Shown: one piece after another, positions 3,815 to 14,157 of the stretch | How the letters are laid out: every line of letters starts with the position of its first letter | Position numbering within the stretch: the first letter of the stretch is position 1 | Program-made: the position numbers and the translations under genes | NCBI RefSeq assembly: GCF_944387245.1 | Contig: NZ_CALXEE010000015.1 | Span: 1-36,057, forward strand | Source of the DNA: an uncultured Intestinimonas sp. | Lineage (GTDB): Bacteria > Bacillota > Clostridia > Oscillospirales > Oscillospiraceae | DNA length: 36,057 bases | Direction: 5' to 3' | Notes under the pieces: model-generated | The model's database searches: none | What the model saw: the letters and a program-made list of their open reading frames with translations, nothing else | Told to the model about the DNA's origin: nothing

Positions 3815-5080
3815 ATGAAGAAGCGCATCCTTGCCATGCTCCTGGCCGGGTCCATGATCTTCGGCCTGGCCGCCTGCTCCGGCGGCGGCAGCACCGAGAC
3901 CACCCCCGCCGAGACCGGTACCGAGGAGACCACCCCTGTGGAGACCGACGGCGCCAAGACCGTGAAGGTGGGCCTCATCTGCATCGGCGACGAGAACGAC
4001 CAGGGCTACACCTACAACTTCATCCGTGGCCAGGAGGCCGCCACCGAGGCCCTGGCCGCCAAGGGCATCAACGTGGAGTGGAGCGTGAAGTGGAACATCG
4101 GTGAGGACTCCTCCTGCGAGGAGGCCAACATCGAGCTGGCCGAGGAGGGCTGCCAGCTCATCATCAACAACTCCTTTGGTTTTGAGGAGTACATGCTGAA
4201 GGTGGCCCCCGACTACCCCGACATTGAGTTCATCTCCTGCACCAACCAGGCCTCCGCCGTGGACGACCTGCCCAACACCCACAACGCCTTCGCCAACATC
4301 TATGAGGGCCGCTACCTGGCCGGCGTGGTGGCCGGCATGAAGATGCAGGAGATGATCGACAACGGCGAGATCACCCCCGAGCAGGCCGTCATTGGCTACG
4401 TGGGCGCCTACTCCTTCGCCGAGGTGATCTCCGGCTTCACCGCCTACTACCTGGGCGCCAAGAGCGTGTGCCCCAGCGTGACCATGAAGGTCAACTTCGT
4501 GGGCTCCTGGTCCGACGCCACCGCCGAGGGCAACGCCGCCCAGGCTCTGTGCGATGAGGGCTGCATCATGATCTCCCAGCACTCCGACAACACCACCCCC
4601 GCCACCGCCGCCCAGGCCGCCGGCGCCTTCCACACCGGCTACAACAACGACATGATCTCCATCGCCCCCGAGGCCTCCCTTATCGGCACCCGCATCGACT
4701 GGTCCGTGTACTTTGAGTACGCCATCGAGGCCGTGGCCAACGGCGAGGAGTTCGACCAGGATTGGTGCCACGGCATGGATATGGGCGCCGTGGTCATGAC
4801 TCCCCTCAACGAGGACATCGCCGCCGCCGGCACCGCTGAGAAGCTGGCCGAGGTGGAGCAGCAGATCCACGATGGCACCCTCCAGGTCTTTGACACCTCC
4901 ACCTTCACCGTGGACGGCGCCGAGATGACCTCCTGCATGGCCATCGACACCGACGGCGACTTCGTGGCCGACTCCGAGGAGGCCGTGTTCGACGGCGCCT
5001 TCCACGAGTCCTACTTCCAGTCCGCCCCCTACTTCACCGCCAAGATCGACGGCATCGAGTGGGTCAACGAGGCTTATTAA
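3815..5080 (+). CDS. BMP-family lipoprotein, purine nucleoside ABC importer binding protein
   Basis: This is the extracellular substrate-binding lipoprotein of a nucleoside-type ABC importer (PnrA/BmpA/NupN family). Its 421 residues begin with a lipoprotein signal peptide whose lipobox is LAAC, with lipidated Cys21. An acidic, Thr/Glu-rich linker at about 22-48 precedes the periplasmic-binding fold. Family features include VKVGLICIGDENDQGYTYN near residue 50 (usual GxxDxSFN), INNSFGFEE, NTHNAFANIYEGRYLAGVVAGM and IGYVGAYSFAEVISGF. The ligand is probably a purine nucleoside, but xanthine or another purine is possible given xpt next door. The start at 3815 is chosen over the ATG at 3808 because GAGGAGGA (3798-3805) is well spaced for it and the signal peptide begins there. 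A strong terminator follows, so the binding protein is probably made in excess over the ATPase and permeases. Confidence 0.9.
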   Translation: MKKRILAMLLAGSMIFGLAACSGGGSTETTPAETGTEETTPVETDGAKTVKVGLICIGDENDQGYTYNFIRGQEAATEALAAKGINVEWSVKWNIGEDSSCEEANIELAEEGCQLIINNSFGFEEYMLKVAPDYPDIEFISCTNQASAVDDLPNTHNAFANIYEGRYLAGVVAGMKMQEMIDNGEITPEQAVIGYVGAYSFAEVISGFTAYYLGAKSVCPSVTMKVNFVGSWSDATAEGNAAQALCDEGCIMISQHSDNTTPATAAQAAGAFHTGYNNDMISIAPEASLIGTRIDWSVYFEYAIEAVANGEEFDQDWCHGMDMGAVVMTPLNEDIAAAGTAEKLAEVEQQIHDGTLQVFDTSTFTVDGAEMTSCMAIDTDGDFVADSEEAVFDGAFHESYFQSAPYFTAKIDGIEWVNEAY

Positions 5081-5100
5081 GCGTCATACCGCGCGCAGAA

Positions 5101-5136
5101 GGGAGGACCGCCGTCCCGGCGGTCCTCCCGTTTTTT
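5101..5136 (+). terminator. Strong terminator between lipoprotein and ATPase genes
   Basis: A 13-bp GC-rich stem (GGGAGGACCGCCG / CGGCGGTCCTCCC, with a short loop) is followed by TTTTTT. It separates the binding-protein gene from the rest of the importer operon. Confidence 0.85.
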
Positions 5137-5144
5137 CCGGGGGC

Positions 5145-5173
5145 TTGCCCCGGCCATTGGCCTCCGGTATAAT
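5145..5173 (+). promoter_or_regulatory. Internal promoter for the ABC ATPase and permeases
   Basis: TTGCCC (5145-5150), a 17-bp spacer and a consensus TATAAT (5168-5173) lie just beyond the terminator and 39 bp before the ATPase start, so the membrane and ATPase parts can be transcribed separately. Confidence 0.7.
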
Positions 5174-5211
5174 GGAATCGAGAAACGGCCGTCACGGAGA
5201 CGGGAGAAAGG

Positions 5212-6807
5212 ATGACAGCCTTGGAAACTGTCCACGCCATTGAGCTGCGGGGCATCACCAAGCGCTTCGGCGCCAAGGTGGTGGCCAACGACCACATCGA
5301 CCTGGCCCTGGACCGGGGGGAGATCCTCTCCCTGCTGGGGGAGAACGGCAGCGGCAAGACCACGCTGATGAATATGCTCTCGGGGATCTACCTGCCCGAC
5401 GAGGGCGAGATCCTCATGGAGGGGAAGCCCATCGCCATCCGCTCCCCCAAGGACGCCTACGACCACGGCATCGGCATGATCCACCAGCACTACAAGCTGG
5501 TGGACGTGTTCACCGCCGCCGAGAACATCGTCCTGGGCCTCCACGACGGAAAGAAGCTGGACCGGAAGGAGATCGCCCGCAAGGTGCGGGAGATCAGCGA
5601 CAAGTACGGCTTCGGCATCGACCCGGACAAGAAGATCTACGACATGTCGGTGTCGGAGAAGCAGACGGTGGAGATCGTCAAGGTGCTCTACCGGGGAGCC
5701 GACATCCTTATCCTGGACGAGCCCACGGCGGTGCTCACCCCCCAGGAGACCGACCGGCTCTTCGACATCCTGCGGGCCATGAAGGCCGACGGCAAGGCCA
5801 TCGTCATCATCACCCACAAGCTCCACGAGGTCATGGCCATCTCGGACAAGGTGGCCGTGCTGCGCAAGGGCAAGTACATCGGCACGGTGAACACAGCCGA
5901 GACCGACCCCCAGAAGCTCACCGAGATGATGGTGGGCCACGCGGTGAGTCTGAACATCGACCGGCCGGAGGCCAAGTACCACGACCTGCGGCTGGAGGTG
6001 AAGGGCCTCAACTGCCTGGGCAGCGACGGAGTGCCCGCCCTCACCGACGTGAGCTTCCAGGCCATGGGCGGCGAGATACTGGGTATCGCCGGCATCGCCG
6101 GCTCCGGCCAGAAGGAGCTGCTGGAGGCCATTGCCGGGCTGCAGAAGGCGGAGTCGGGCCACATCTTCTACTATCCGCCCCACCCCAAGAGCGACATCGC
6201 CGGCAAGCACGTGCCGGTGGACAAGGCGGGGGAGGAGCTGGTGGGGAAGACCCCCACCCAGATCCAGAAGATCGGCGTCTCCCTGGCCTTCGTACCCGAG
6301 GACCGGCTGGGCATGGGCCTGGTGGGGGGCATGGGCATGGTGGACAACATGATGCTCAAGACCTACAAGGAGCACCCCGGTCCCTTCGTGGACCGGAAGC
6401 CCCCCAAGGCCCTGGCCGAAAAGCTCATCGATGAGCTGGAGATCGTCACCCCTGGGGTGAACACCCCGGTGCGGCGGCTCTCCGGCGGCAACGTACAGAA
6501 GGTGCTGGTGGGCCGGGAAATCGCCTCCAGCCCCACGGTGCTCATGACGGCCTACCCCGTCCGCGGCCTGGACATCAACTCCTCCTACACCATCTACCGC
6601 CTCCTCAACGAGCAGAAGATGAAGGGGGTGGCCGTCCTTATGGTGGGCGAGGACCTGGACGTGCTGCTGGAGCTGTGCGACCGCATCCTGGTCCTCTGCG
6701 GAGGCCGGGTCTCCGGGGTGGTGGACGGCCGCACCGCCACCAAGGAGGAAGTGGGCCTCCTCATGACCCACGTGGGCGGCGGAAAGGAGGCGGAAGACCA
6801 TGCATGA
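5212..6807 (+). CDS. ABC importer ATPase with two nucleotide-binding domains
   Basis: This is the double-NBD ATPase of a nucleoside/simple-sugar importer (YufO/NupA, RbsA-like), 531 residues. The first domain has Walker A GENGSGKTT at 43-51, a variant signature VSEKQ at 147-151 and Walker B ILILDEP at 165-171. The second domain has a degenerate Walker A (GIAGSGQKE, about 294-302), a canonical LSGGN at 423-427, and TAYPVRGLD in place of a normal Walker B. This asymmetry is usual for the family. The start ATG at 5212 has GGGAG and AAAGG upstream. Its end overlaps the next permease by 8 bp, so the two are translationally coupled. Confidence 0.92.
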   Translation: MTALETVHAIELRGITKRFGAKVVANDHIDLALDRGEILSLLGENGSGKTTLMNMLSGIYLPDEGEILMEGKPIAIRSPKDAYDHGIGMIHQHYKLVDVFTAAENIVLGLHDGKKLDRKEIARKVREISDKYGFGIDPDKKIYDMSVSEKQTVEIVKVLYRGADILILDEPTAVLTPQETDRLFDILRAMKADGKAIVIITHKLHEVMAISDKVAVLRKGKYIGTVNTAETDPQKLTEMMVGHAVSLNIDRPEAKYHDLRLEVKGLNCLGSDGVPALTDVSFQAMGGEILGIAGIAGSGQKELLEAIAGLQKAESGHIFYYPPHPKSDIAGKHVPVDKAGEELVGKTPTQIQKIGVSLAFVPEDRLGMGLVGGMGMVDNMMLKTYKEHPGPFVDRKPPKALAEKLIDELEIVTPGVNTPVRRLSGGNVQKVLVGREIASSPTVLMTAYPVRGLDINSSYTIYRLLNEQKMKGVAVLMVGEDLDVLLELCDRILVLCGGRVSGVVDGRTATKEEVGLLMTHVGGGKEAEDHA

Positions 6808-7888
6808 AGCCAATACCCCTCTCATCCGGCTGGCTAAGCGGGACGGCATGTCCCGGGGAAAGATGTGGGCCATCCGGGCGGCCGCCTTCGTGGTGGCCAT
6901 CCTCATCGGCGCCGTCGTCTTTCTCCTCATCGGGAATAACCCCATCTCGGCCTACGGCACCATCCTCACCGGCTCCCTGGGCAAAAAGACGGCCATCCGC
7001 CAGACGGTGCGCATCGCCATCCCTCTGCTGGGCACCGCCCTGGCCATCGCCCCCTGCTTCAAGATGAAGTTCTGGAACATCGGCGCCGAGGGCCAGATCA
7101 CCGCCGGCGCCGTGGGGGCCGCCTACTTCGCCCTCTTCTGGGCCGACAAGCTGCCCGGGCCGGTGCTGCTGGTGGTCATGGCCATCGCCGGCGCCCTCTT
7201 CGGCGGTATCTGGGCCCTGATCCCCGCCTTCTTCAAGACCAGGTGGGGCACCAACGAGACCCTCTTCACCCTCATGATGAACTACATCGCCATCGGCATC
7301 GTCAACTGGCTCCAGGGCGGCCCCTGGGAGGGCCGGCCCGGCTCCCAGATCATCCCCCAGTATGACTCCGCCGCCGTCCTCCCCAAGGTACTGGGGGTCC
7401 ACTGCGGCTGGATCATCGTGCTGGCCCTCACCGTCCTCATGTATTTCTACATGAAGTACACCAAGCAAGGCTATGAGATCGCCGTGGTGGGCGAGAGCGA
7501 AAACACTGCCCGCTACGCCGGCATGAACGTGGGGCGCATCGTTATGCGGACCATGTTCCTCTCGGGCGCCATCTCCGGCCTGGTGGGCTTCATCGTCTCC
7601 TCCGGCGCCGACAACACCCTCCACTCCGGGGTGGCCGCCGGGGTGGGCTTCACCGCCATCACCGTGGCGTGGCTGGCCCAGCTCAACCCCTTCGCCATGG
7701 TGGGCATCTCCGCCCTCCTGGCCGTGCTGGAGAAGGGCGCCGACACCCTCCAGACCCAGATGCAGGTGCCCGCCTCCATCTCCGACATCATCACCGGCGT
7801 GGTCCTCTTCTGCATGCTGGGCTGTGAGTTCTTCATCAATTACCGGGTGATCCTCCGGGGTCACCACAAGGAGGTGACCGGCGCATGA
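6800..7888 (+). CDS. Nucleoside-type ABC importer permease 1
   Basis: This 362-residue integral membrane protein belongs to the BPD_transp_2 family (YufP/NupB-like) and has about nine or ten hydrophobic segments. The motif FWNIGAEGQ near residues 90-98 is the coupling-region hallmark of this family and is paired with NLGVEGMM in the second permease. The conserved WLAQLNPFAM region lies near residue 290. It forms the inner-membrane channel with the following gene. It overlaps the ATPase gene upstream and the second permease downstream (ATGA), a typical tight operon. Substrate specificity cannot be read from the sequence; nucleoside or purine is inferred from the BMP protein and xpt. Confidence 0.9.
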   Translation: MHEANTPLIRLAKRDGMSRGKMWAIRAAAFVVAILIGAVVFLLIGNNPISAYGTILTGSLGKKTAIRQTVRIAIPLLGTALAIAPCFKMKFWNIGAEGQITAGAVGAAYFALFWADKLPGPVLLVVMAIAGALFGGIWALIPAFFKTRWGTNETLFTLMMNYIAIGIVNWLQGGPWEGRPGSQIIPQYDSAAVLPKVLGVHCGWIIVLALTVLMYFYMKYTKQGYEIAVVGESENTARYAGMNVGRIVMRTMFLSGAISGLVGFIVSSGADNTLHSGVAAGVGFTAITVAWLAQLNPFAMVGISALLAVLEKGADTLQTQMQVPASISDIITGVVLFCMLGCEFFINYRVILRGHHKEVTGA

Positions 7889-8880
7889 GCATCAATCAGA
7901 GCTTCCTGGTCCTTCTCATCAGTGCCGCCGTCCTCAACGGCACGCCCCTCCTCTTCGGCACCGTGGGCGAGATCCTGTCGGAAAAGGCGGGCAACCTGAA
8001 CCTGGGCGTGGAGGGCATGATGTACATGGGCGGCGCCCTGGGCCTGGGGGCGGCCTTCTACTACGAGCAGGCCGCGGGCGGCAGCGCCAACGGTATCGTG
8101 GCCGTGGTGCTGGCCATCCTCTTCGCCTTCCTGGCCGGAGCCTTCGGCGCCCTCATCTACGCCTTTCTCACCATCTCCCTCCGGGCCAACCAGAACGTCA
8201 CCGGCCTGGCCCTGGCCATCTTCGGCACCGGCGCGGGACAGTTCATCGGCGAGTACATGCGGGTGAGCGCCGGCGGCTACGTGGCCATCAGCAACGCCCT
8301 CAAGGACGTCTTTGCCAATTCCCCCTTCCCGGCGGCCCTGCGGGGGCTGCCCGTGGTGGGACCTCTGATCTTCGGCTATAACATCTTCGTCTATGTGGGG
8401 GTGATCATCGCCGTGGCCATGGCCTGGTTCCTCACCCGCAGCCGGGCCGGCCTCCACCTGCGCTCCGTGGGCGAGTCCCCCGCCACCGCCGACGCCGCCG
8501 GCATCAACATCACCCGCTACAAGTACCTGGCCACCGTCATCGGCGGCGGAATCTCGGCCATCGGCGGCATGGTCTACATCATGACCATCGCCGGCTGCGT
8601 GTGGAACCACGAGGGCCTCTCCGGCGAGGGCTGGCTGGCCGTGGCCCTGGTCATCTTCTGCCTGTGGCGGCCTCTCAACGCCATCTGGGGCTCCGTCCTC
8701 TTCGGCGCCCTCATGATCCTCTACATGCGCCTTCAGCTCCCCTTCATCCCCAGCCAGCTCTACAAGATCCTGCCCTATGTGGTCACCGTCATCGTCCTGG
8801 TGGCCGTCAGCATGCGCAAGAAGCGGGAGAACCAACCGCCCGCATCGCTGGGCAACGCCTACTTCCGGGAGGACCGGTAA
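7885..8880 (+). CDS. Nucleoside-type ABC importer permease 2
   Basis: This 331-residue membrane protein (YufQ/NupC-like, BPD_transp_2) has eight or nine hydrophobic segments. The family motif is EKAGNLNLGVEGMMYMGG near residues 33-50, and a second conserved block, VGESPATADAAGIN, lies near residue 195. It pairs with the upstream permease to form the translocation path. The start overlaps the previous stop by 4 bp. The gene ends the importer operon, and a terminator follows 20 bp later. Confidence 0.9.
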   Translation: MSINQSFLVLLISAAVLNGTPLLFGTVGEILSEKAGNLNLGVEGMMYMGGALGLGAAFYYEQAAGGSANGIVAVVLAILFAFLAGAFGALIYAFLTISLRANQNVTGLALAIFGTGAGQFIGEYMRVSAGGYVAISNALKDVFANSPFPAALRGLPVVGPLIFGYNIFVYVGVIIAVAMAWFLTRSRAGLHLRSVGESPATADAAGINITRYKYLATVIGGGISAIGGMVYIMTIAGCVWNHEGLSGEGWLAVALVIFCLWRPLNAIWGSVLFGALMILYMRLQLPFIPSQLYKILPYVVTVIVLVAVSMRKKRENQPPASLGNAYFREDR

Positions 8881-10044: not shown

Positions 10045-10083
10045 GAGGGAAGGGCGCCCTTTTCCAAAGTTCCCCAAAACAGC

Positions 10084-10166
10084 AAAAACCGGACGCCTGC
10101 TCCTGACGTCCGGCCCCTGCCAAAAGGAAAGAGGATACAATGAAATGAAAAGAAACTGTCTCTTGC
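10084..10166 (-). ncRNA. Predicted small RNA 1 of a tandem homologous pair
   Basis: On the minus strand a TATAAT (10176-10171) lies 5 nt before GCAAGAGAC. A pyrimidine-rich stretch follows (TTTCTTTTCATT, then CATTGTATCCTC). The RNA ends in a 7-bp hairpin (CCGGACG / CGTCCGG, 10113-10089) plus TTTTT, a Rho-independent terminator, giving about 83 nt. A -35 TTGTTA lies 15 bp before the -10, slightly short. No open reading frame runs through it on this strand. The middle is complementary to a Shine-Dalgarno site plus an AUGAAAAG start (GAGGATACAATGAA on the plus strand, 10131-10144), suggesting translational control in trans. I know no family name for it. Confidence 0.6.
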
Positions 10167-10265
10167 GAGTATTATAGTACCGTAGAGTTGTTAACAATCA
10201 AATCCTGAATTGTTACAAGAAGATTAAATCTTCCCAATTTGCTGTAAAGTTCGTGTAATCTGGGG

Positions 10266-10347
10266 AAAAAAGAAAAAGAGCGGCGGTAATGCCCGTCGCT
10301 CTCTTCCCGGATCGGAGGATAGAATGAAAAGAAGAATCGTCTCTTGC
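10266..10347 (-). ncRNA. Predicted small RNA 2 of a tandem homologous pair
   Basis: This second copy shares with RNA 1 the 5' GCAAGAGAC, a CTTTTCATT core and TATCCTC in the same order, and the 40-bp interval from the TTGT box to GAGAC is identical in length. The terminator hairpin (about 10302-10277, AGAGCG arms) is different in sequence but is followed by TTTTTCTTTTTT, so the ending is conserved by structure. The promoter is weaker (TTGTAA, 17 bp, CACAAT). The unit is about 80 nt, and RNA 1 lies about 100 bp downstream. Confidence 0.55.
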
Positions 10348-10412
10348 TGATTGTGATGATACCAGCAGATTGTTACAAAAGAAGGCCACAGATGTTACAA
10401 ATCTGTGAAACA

Positions 10413-12664: not shown

Positions 12665-14047
12665 TTACCGCCAGAACTGGCTCTTTCCCCGGTGGACGAA
12701 CTGTCCCTGCCCCTCCAGGACCACCTTGCCGTCCTGGGCGGCCAGGGCGCCGCTGAGGAAGACGGCCTCGGGCTTGCCGGTGAGGGTCATGCCCTCGTAG
12801 GGGGTGTAGTCCACCGCCTGGACCTGGTCCTGGGCGGTAATGGTCCAGGTGCGGGCGGGGTCGAAGATGACCACGTCGGCGTCGTTGCCCACAGCCAGGC
12901 AGCCCTTCCGGGGCCACATGCCGAAGAGCTTGGCGGGCTGCTCTGCCAGGAGCCGCACCAGGTCATTCACCGTCATCCGGCCCTGGCCCACCCCGAAGTG
13001 GTACATGAGGGCGGGGCGGTGCTCCACGCCGGGCAGGCCGTTGGGGATTTTGGAGAAGTCATCCCGGCCCAGCTCCTTTACCCCGTGGAAGTCGAAGGAG
13101 CAGTGGTCGGTACCCATGGTGTCGATGTCCCCGGCGGCGATGCCCTCCCACAGGGCCGTCTGGTCGTCCTTGCTCCGGGCGGGAGGGGAGAAGACGTACT
13201 TGGCCCCCTCGAAGTCGGGAAGGCTGTACAGGCTGTCGTCCAGGAGGAGGTACTGGGGGCAGGTCTCCACATAGAGCTTCTGGCCCCGTGCCCGGGCCGC
13301 CCGGACGGCCTCCAGGCCCCGGCGGGTAGAGAGGTGGACGATGTTCACCGGCACCCCCGCCAGCTCGGCGATGGAGAGATAGCGGCTCACCGCCTCGGCC
13401 TCCACCAGAGGGGGCCGGGACAGGGGGTGGGCCTGGGTGCCCAGATTGCCCGCCGCCTTCTGGGCGGCAATGCCCTTGGTCACCAGGTCGCCGTTTTCGC
13501 AGTGGCAGCCCACCACGGCCCCCTCCTCCGCTGTGGCCTTGAGGACCTCATAGATGACCCCGTCGGGCAGGCGCAGGTTGTCGTAGGCCATGTAGACCTT
13601 GTAGGAGGTGACCCCGGCGGCGGTCATGTCCTTCAGCTCGGCCCGGATACGGGGGTCCCAGTCCTTGATGGTCATGTGGAAGCCGTAGTGGCAGCTGGCC
13701 ACCCCGTCGGCCCGGCTGTGCCAGGTCTCCAGGGCGGAGGCCAGAGAGCAGCCCCGCTGGGATTCGGCAAAGTCCAGCACGGTGGTGGTGCCCCCGGCCA
13801 GGGCGGCCATGGAGCCCGTCCGCCAGTCGTCGGTGGTCTCGTTGGGCAGGCCCTTGTTCATCTCGAAGTGGGTGTGGGTGTCGATGAAGCCGGGGAAGAC
13901 CAGCTTCCCGGCGGCCTTCACCACCTGGGCGTCCCCGGCGGGCAGGTCGGGGCCGATCTGGACGATCTTGCCGCCGTCCATGCGCAGATCGGCCTGGACG
14001 GGACCCTCGGGCAGCACCAGGGTGCCATTCTGAATGAGGATAGACAT
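12665..14047 (-). CDS. hyuA: Dihydropyrimidinase / D-hydantoinase-type amidohydrolase
   Basis: This cyclic amidohydrolase opens hydantoin, dihydropyrimidine or similar ureide rings. Of its 460 residues, the whole binuclear zinc set of the family is present at near-identical positions: His58 and His60 (DTHTH), the carboxylated Lys150 (TSYKVYMAY), His182 (GCHCENGD), His238 (VNIVHLST) and Asp314 (MGTDHCSFD). The start ATG at 14047 has AAGGAGGT 9 nt upstream; the in-frame ATG at 14068 precedes that site and is rejected. E. coli hyuA (ygeZ) sits in a purine-catabolism cluster with xdh and carbamate kinase, as here. A terminator-like hairpin separates it from the upstream membrane-protein gene. Actual substrate unproven. 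Confidence 0.9.
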   Translation of the reverse strand: MSILIQNGTLVLPEGPVQADLRMDGGKIVQIGPDLPAGDAQVVKAAGKLVFPGFIDTHTHFEMNKGLPNETTDDWRTGSMAALAGGTTTVLDFAESQRGCSLASALETWHSRADGVASCHYGFHMTIKDWDPRIRAELKDMTAAGVTSYKVYMAYDNLRLPDGVIYEVLKATAEEGAVVGCHCENGDLVTKGIAAQKAAGNLGTQAHPLSRPPLVEAEAVSRYLSIAELAGVPVNIVHLSTRRGLEAVRAARARGQKLYVETCPQYLLLDDSLYSLPDFEGAKYVFSPPARSKDDQTALWEGIAAGDIDTMGTDHCSFDFHGVKELGRDDFSKIPNGLPGVEHRPALMYHFGVGQGRMTVNDLVRLLAEQPAKLFGMWPRKGCLAVGNDADVVIFDPARTWTITAQDQVQAVDYTPYEGMTLTGKPEAVFLSGALAAQDGKVVLEGQGQFVHRGKSQFWR

Positions 14048-14073
14048 AGGGATGACCTCCTTTTTCATGTATC

Positions 14074-14121
14074 AAAAAAACGGGCTCCCATCCTGACTGT
14101 GCCGTCAAAATGGAAGCCCGT
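14074..14121 (-). terminator. Intra-operon terminator/attenuator before hyuA
   Basis: On the minus strand ACGGGCTTCC (14121-14112) pairs with GGGAGCCCGT (14089-14080) with one mismatch, and TTTTTTT follows. It lies between the small membrane-protein gene and hyuA, so hyuA should be transcribed at a lower level or under conditional read-through. Confidence 0.7.
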
Positions 14122-14157
14122 GCGCGCGGCACTTCGTTACAGCTTCTCGGAAAACAT

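Follow-up and report, generated by a model that had tools for sequence, protein, structure and literature searches.

The window, by which we mean the whole stretch of 36,057 nucleotides analysed here from an uncultured Intestinimonas sp., carries two sibling small RNA (sRNA) genes, A and B, on its minus strand. Their gene anatomy, strand, conservation and paralogy, a covarying terminator in B and a common promoter array were all observed. We consider that A and B are probably independently transcribed, terminator-ended members of an order-level family, which would block translation start sites under WalR-type control. Judged from the sequences, the family is genuine, belongs to a known kind of sRNA and has no entry in Rfam. 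No paper titled on sRNAs of Flavonifractor or Intestinimonas was found in a search by these genus names.

Table 1. Positions of the features of A and B in the window.
Feature	Position	Strand	Description	Basis
sRNA A	10268..10347	-	5′ box GCAAGAGAC, core, terminator; RNA start 10347 (ends approximate)	
Core of A	10314..10334	-	CUUCUUUUCAUUCUAUCCUCC; complement GGAGGAUAGAAUGAAAAGAAG	
Terminator hairpin of A	10271..10308	-	3′ side T-rich	folding
sRNA B	10076..10166	-	5′ box GCAAGAGACAG, core, terminator; start 10166	
Core of B	10126..10152	-	CUUUUCAUUUCAUUGUAUCCUCUUUCC; complement GGAAAGAGGAUACAAUGAAAUGAAAAG	
Terminator hairpin of B	10081..10121	-	conserved loop AGGAGCA	
-10 element of B	10171..10176	-	TATAAT	read directly; conserved in other units
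Promoter array of A	10371..10410	-	TTTCAC-N5-TGTAACA-N15-TGTAACA	2 mismatches to array pattern; 34-unit stack
Promoter array of B	10189..10228	-	TTTAAT-N5-TGTAACA-N16-TTAACA	0 mismatches to array pattern; exact box
Extra half-site pair 5′ of B	10242..10258	-	TTACAC-N5-TTACAG, 11 bp spacing	seen directly

The preliminary description of this DNA had placed a TTGT 31 bp 5′ of GCAAGAGAC in two minus-strand units, and the spacing is exactly 31 bases in both. The pyrimidine-rich cores with CTTTTCATT and TATCCTC were likewise read in both units, and each unit is closed by a hairpin with a T-run, as had been claimed. The folding of the full RNAs, compared with dinucleotide shuffles, gave z values of -3.5 for B and -2.4 for A, and the 5′ parts of A and B alone folded no better than shuffles. 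B may end at either of two T-runs, 10084-10088 or 10076-10079. As described, A and B have different hairpin sequences and both keep the terminator; among B copies, the hairpin and its loop are conserved. The array of A consists of WalR/PhoP-like half-sites with spacings of 11 and 22 bp. A and B each have a predicted promoter of their own, an intergenic position and an intrinsic terminator, as expected of trans-acting base-pairing sRNAs. The earlier observation was right and understated, and the upstream array common to all three types of the family had been missed.

When both units were compared with 60 relatives by blastn, the best E value was below 1e-29 in nine of the 10 other genomes of the genus (G009 gave only 0.066), and matches below 1e-8 were obtained in 5 of the 26 other genomes of the family, which argues that the units are not chance. 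A pattern scan of genome contigs gave 89 matching stretches, of which 80 were retrieved for analysis; the carriers were Flavonifractor (among them Flavonifractor plautii ATCC 29863), Pseudoflavonifractor, Intestinimonas, Scatomorpha, Galloscillospira, further Oscillospiraceae and others. In F. plautii ATCC 29863 (L155), A and B are arranged in tandem. The scan pattern fixed GCAAGRGACAG, TCATT and TCCTC, and the B and C copies owe the invariance of these bases in part to the search itself; most A copies were found through their nearness to a B. Model R1, in which the hairpins of A and B were mixed and no base pairs were obtained, was used as a sequence model and extracted 112 units. A match on a Methanolobus contig (L151) was dropped as chance and 15 units from relatives were added, which made 126, and 118 distinct copies were kept. 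A and B are paralogs, as the preliminary description had proposed. The copies fall into three core types, with 35 copies of type A, 55 of type B and 28 of type C (core CAGUUUCAUCUUUUUCAUUUUGUCCUCAUUCC), and the array is common to all types. All 33 loci that hold both types have A on the 5′ side of B, with the two genes on one strand; in two of these loci they are 0.7 and 2 kb apart. Two of the 35 A copies (L047, L040) and the B copies at 28 loci have no partner on their own stretch, these stretches being often draft contigs. Three tandem type-C copies, nearly identical in pairs, were seen at positions 420-970 of L162. The tadA gene is the 5′ neighbour of many A-B loci and other copies are located elsewhere (assigned by eye, the neighbour calls being contaminated by antisense ORFs); such scattered copies are the pattern expected of trans-acting RNAs.

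Related genomes were searched with model R2, a sequence-only model of promoter and core. R2 matched 76 of 394 genomes of the order at E<=1e-3. Twelve genomes of families f2, f7 and f13 matched at E<1e-6, and in a class-wide sample of 391 genomes the only matches at E<=1e-5 were in G000, G060 and G030, all of the same family as the window. Rfam gave no sRNA family at the gathering score in the window or in the loci of 19 relatives, the only matches being ssnA and two tRNAs, in agreement with the earlier statement that no named family fits. The sRNA family, for which Rfam has no entry, is present in 38 of the 43 genomes listed for the gut-bacterial family of the window, its own genome included. 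The ssnA RNA motif (RF03031, 45.8 bits) lies at 14105-14152 on the minus strand, 5′ of a dihydropyrimidinase-like ORF (12665-14068, by eye). Around 19045 and 32048, the window has a recurring palindrome-like sequence that contains GGAAAAAGAACGGTTTTTGGAATCCAAAGAAAAAGGGGC and may be a small mobile repeat.

In all types the promoter reads TTTAAY-N5-TGTAACA-N16-TAACA, followed by about 12 bases, the -10 region and the RNA start; the first half-site is looser in some A copies and C has one extra base. When 34 units were stacked at +1, the array fell in the same columns, with type C one base further out. Among the 112 full-length units, the second half-site starts at -51 or -52 in 102, and all three half-sites meet a loose pattern in 86. 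The exact box TKTAAYNNNNNTGTAACA was found at 23 sites in 10 genomes, compared with 1 for a reversed-pattern control: 11 were sRNA promoters, 9 belonged to an operon for an NlpC/P60 hydrolase, 2 lay upstream of a Bmp-family lipoprotein gene and 1 was elsewhere. The boxes of the hydrolase operon overlie the -10 region, with one per genome and none in the draft G010. The hydrolase has an SH3-SH3-NlpC/P60 arrangement (Pfam for the G002 copy, PF00877 E 2.6e-31; other copies by eye). At L083:1570-2791 the operon consists of a 96-aa protein without a Pfam match and this hydrolase; the TGTAACCAAATTGTAACA box is present at the promoter of such operons in 9 of 10 genomes, and in G024 it stands directly before the hydrolase gene. 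Positions 3815-8880 of the plus strand of the window carry a Bmp-family lipoprotein gene (PF02608) and, behind it, genes of an ABC transporter (by eye), and another Bmp gene (G000:C18) has the same promoter box. At about 1500 of L081 (G024), a weak array match with 3 mismatches, which may be chance, stands before a gene for a Na+/phosphate symporter-like protein (by eye).

The array is PhoP/PhoB-like, but a Pho regulon was rejected, since 15 of 16 pstS places in 12 genomes lack the array. The best array scores at these 15 places stay below the background maximum of 15.3, and the sRNA units score 15.1-47.0; the pstS place in L087 (G007) has a score of 22.9 about 1.1 kb upstream. In the available part of the B. 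subtilis study, the WalR motif is given as TGTWAH-N5-TGTWAH (PMC9210968). The array here reads TKTAAY-N5-TGTAACA, in which the second half-site matches this motif and the first is usually TTTAAY. OmpR-type C-terminal domains number 12 in G000 and 19 in G008. One G008 regulator has YycF as its best NCBIfam model at 293.5 bits, below the cut-off of 340, and adjoins a WalK-like kinase (kinase by eye); a second regulator scored 254.8 for YycF, also below the cut-off. From this, we infer that an OmpR-family response regulator, likeliest of the WalR/YycF type, may bind at the putative -62/-51 half-sites. The available text on S. aureus WalR states that the mode of regulation is set by the site position (PMC10746227), and by this logic the sRNA site (-62 to -45) would be activating and the hydrolase site over the -10 repressing. 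The putative WalR-type control would therefore activate the sRNA genes and repress the NlpC/P60 hydrolase. The likeness to the WalR (YycF/VicR) regulon, as far as the available excerpts describe it, lies in the box near TGTWAH-N5-TGTWAH, in its presence also at a peptidoglycan-hydrolase operon, and in the YycF-like regulator with its WalK-like kinase; on the other hand, sRNAs are not mentioned among the WalR targets in the available parts of the WalR literature on B. subtilis and S. aureus.

The cores of A and B are complementary to a Shine-Dalgarno (SD) sequence, a spacer and AUG-AAA, and the earlier remark that their complement reads as an ideal initiation region was borne out by distant relatives. 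Twenty divergent members, 16 of them from other families, were hand-picked from the matches of a core-containing model; their 5′ boxes are altered, with GCAGGCAGUAGCG, GAAGUGAU and GCAAGGCAAGAACAG among them. In f2 and most f7 members, the core is UUUUUCAU-spacer-CCCUCCUA, the complement of UAGGAGGG-spacer-AUG-AAAAA. The arrangement TTTCAT-N3..9-anti-SD was found in 13 of the 20 (10 of the 16 from other families), where 0.05 was expected from shuffles; this count is biased, as the search model contains the core, yet the spacer length and SD strength depart from the model. The presence of CAU and anti-SD at a workable spacing in these 13 favours the start-site mechanism of the preliminary description, and start-site blocking by A and B, with targets that are candidates only, is our best reading. 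The pattern is missing from the other seven (three f13, two f3, one f7 and one of the same family). In the five loci from f13 and f3, the anti-SD stretch is kept without CAU, as would be the case if the sRNAs were real but paired solely with the SD and had few specific target genes, the AUG-AAA complement being inherited without a role and the exported bias not being a true one. We regard this alternative as rather unlikely, and the 13 members that kept CAU despite changed flanks and spacers speak against it, with the bias stated above. A, B and C have the start-region complement in common and different flanks, and they therefore probably divide the targets among themselves.

The sequence GGAGGATANAATGAAAA, with up to 2 mismatches, occurs at 66 sites in 12 genomes; 39 of these lie outside sRNA genes, and the sequences at all 39 were translated in silico. 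An ATG frame of at least 60 codons is opened by 21 of the 39, and 10 of these 21 encode proteins that are exported or membrane-anchored by eye. Near-perfect sites are rarely in common between genomes, which is in line with SD-only pairing; they lie at orthologs only twice, in a secreted protein of G006/G010 and a Der-like GTPase of G002/G005. The earlier interpretation was partly supported: the core stays complementary to a start region in 13 of the divergent members, but that the RNAs pair with the SD and the start of mRNAs to block translation is a proposal, with such recurrence in only two genome pairs and favourable but modest results in the pairing tests. The secreted protein MKKRILSFALSLTLCLG (L412/L414), whose start is identical in the two genomes and has a near-perfect core complement, is a candidate target. 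In G007 (L020 ~1797-2079, C17:4133), the start GGAGGATACAATGAAAA of a 90-aa membrane-like protein without a Pfam match is a perfect core complement, 120 bases downstream of two tandem B genes. The livG gene of G008 was dropped as a strong B target, its site not being found in the six orthologs checked. The genome of the window has GGAGGA-N3..6-ATGAAA at 8 places besides A, and three of these gene starts are common with G002: a lipoprotein MKKRTIALLLLTALLG (L376/L388), a GalU-like protein MKVRKAVIPAAGLGTRM (L386/L392) and MKVVIVGGVAGG (L382/L369).

A pairing test was conducted on a G008 sample of 40 stretches and 851 ORFs, with 508 ATG genes having an SD, and on 225 genes of G004; a simple in-house rule served to assign signal peptides, and the C and f2 cores used in G008 were taken from other genomes. 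In G008, the cores paired more strongly with exported than with cytosolic starts, with median differences of -2.2, -3.1 and -3.2 kcal/mol for A, B and C, respectively, and a bias of this kind appeared in 0 of 30 dinucleotide shuffles for each, which opposes the SD-only alternative. The f2 core showed a weak bias (2/30 and 6/30 shuffles), and A with its 5′ box, tested on all G008 starts, surpassed mononucleotide shuffles by just 0.5 sd. The preference for exported starts recurred in G004 for B (p 0.0095, 2/40 shuffles), and for A it was not significant among the 225 genes (p 0.28, 6/40 shuffles). A control with the 16S 3′ end showed no outright preference there (p 0.81), unlike B, which again counts against pairing with SDs only; yet it too outperformed its shuffled versions (1/40 for exported and 0/40 for lipoprotein starts), and the shuffle measure in G004 is therefore not specific to the sRNAs as compared with any anti-SD, which together with the result for A leans towards that alternative. 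Exported genes often start with AUG-AA (0.59 vs 0.11, G004), and, given this and the in-house signal-peptide rule, the bias is a preference and not a proof. In the samples from G008 and G004, lipoproteins and secreted proteins are over-represented among the genes that start with AUG-AA behind a strong SD, and genes with such starts are the likeliest candidate targets.

In the start-site reading that we prefer, an OmpR-family regulator, most likely of the WalR/YycF type, would bind the -62/-51 half-sites and activate transcription from a poor -35. The CU-rich core would then base-pair with target mRNAs over the SD, the spacer and AUG-AAA, keeping ribosomes from entering, and envelope-protein synthesis would be lowered while the cell-wall regulator is active. 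The family probably damps the output of selected, perhaps exported, proteins. A wider version is a class-level translational brake, in which the conserved seed is complementary to initiation regions in general (SD, spacer, AUG, AAA) and acts under WalR-type control, the starts of exported proteins are dampened as a class and the NlpC/P60 hydrolase is repressed alongside. We think this version unlikely; if true, it makes the testable claim that one regulator can single out a class of proteins by their start sites.

The terminator helix of B was analysed in 55 B sequences. Paired bases made up 97.8% of its cells, compared with 36-48% in slid controls, and changes on both sides were found in 14 of 16 pairs, a result reached by 0 of 500 shuffles. 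The cells included 104 G-U and 7 A-C; this excess would be reversed if read on the other strand, and the RNA is therefore the minus strand. The 5′ box of B is predicted to pair with part of the core, leaving the core partly paired; this helix showed no covariation, its bases barely vary, and it counts neither for nor against. The AGGAGCA loop of B is conserved beyond plain terminator needs. GGA or AGGAG in a hairpin loop is the CsrA motif. The sRNAs could have a protein as their main partner; in that case CsrA, or a protein like it, would bind the GGA of the B loop (AGGAG), and the core would be secondary. AGGAGC is present in the terminator loop of 46 of the 55 B copies and in one copy among the 63 of types A and C, and the stem around it covaries, both of which fit this idea; but each B RNA has a single AGGAG loop, A and C have none, and the feature common to A, B, C and the divergent relatives is the core and not the loop, so that we judge it very unlikely. 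That the element is instead a small peptide gene or leader on the plus strand, which carries GGAGGATAGAATGAAAAG, an ideal RBS-ATG (MKRNCLLRVL / MKRRIVSC), is extremely improbable and was rejected, because conservation follows the RNA rather than this peptide, the alternative that the preliminary description had named as refuting it: in 46 of 55 B copies a stop codon ends the frame after the second codon, in A and C the frame and its length vary, no reading frame is conserved, and the promoter array, the terminator and the G-U asymmetry all match the minus strand.

Sibling sRNAs are also found in Neisseria meningitidis, where a study reportedly mentions the anti-Shine-Dalgarno; the sibling arrangement is alike and the organism is unrelated. 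Among Gram-positive bacteria, the available part of the LhrC report describes RsaE, FsrA, SprD and other sRNAs in which UCCC motifs bind targets and translation is blocked at the SD (PMC4132741). The RNAs described here differ from these in having no Rfam match and no UCCC in the window cores, which read UCCUCC and UCCUC; UCCC is present in f2/f7 relatives. According to the same part of that report, LhrC1-5 of Listeria monocytogenes are multicopy homologous sRNAs with LisRK-dependent promoters, placed under envelope-stress two-component control through an element upstream of -53, and through CU-rich motifs they bind the mRNA for the surface adhesin LapB at its ribosome-binding region (lapB; PMC4132741). 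Membership in LhrC fails on sequence and on the missing UCCC, and none of the five Rfam matches at E<=5 is LhrC. The organisms, 5′ box, terminator and promoter array differ as well, and, as far as LhrC is described there, three UCCC sites stand against one core here with UCCUC(C) and the AUG-AAA complement. As in the described LhrC system, the RNAs are multicopy and CU-rich, and their common promoter array is consistent with one envelope-stress regulator. LhrC is the closest analogue, which the family may resemble in its way of working, and this parallel points to a putative link between cell-wall signalling and translation in gut commensals.
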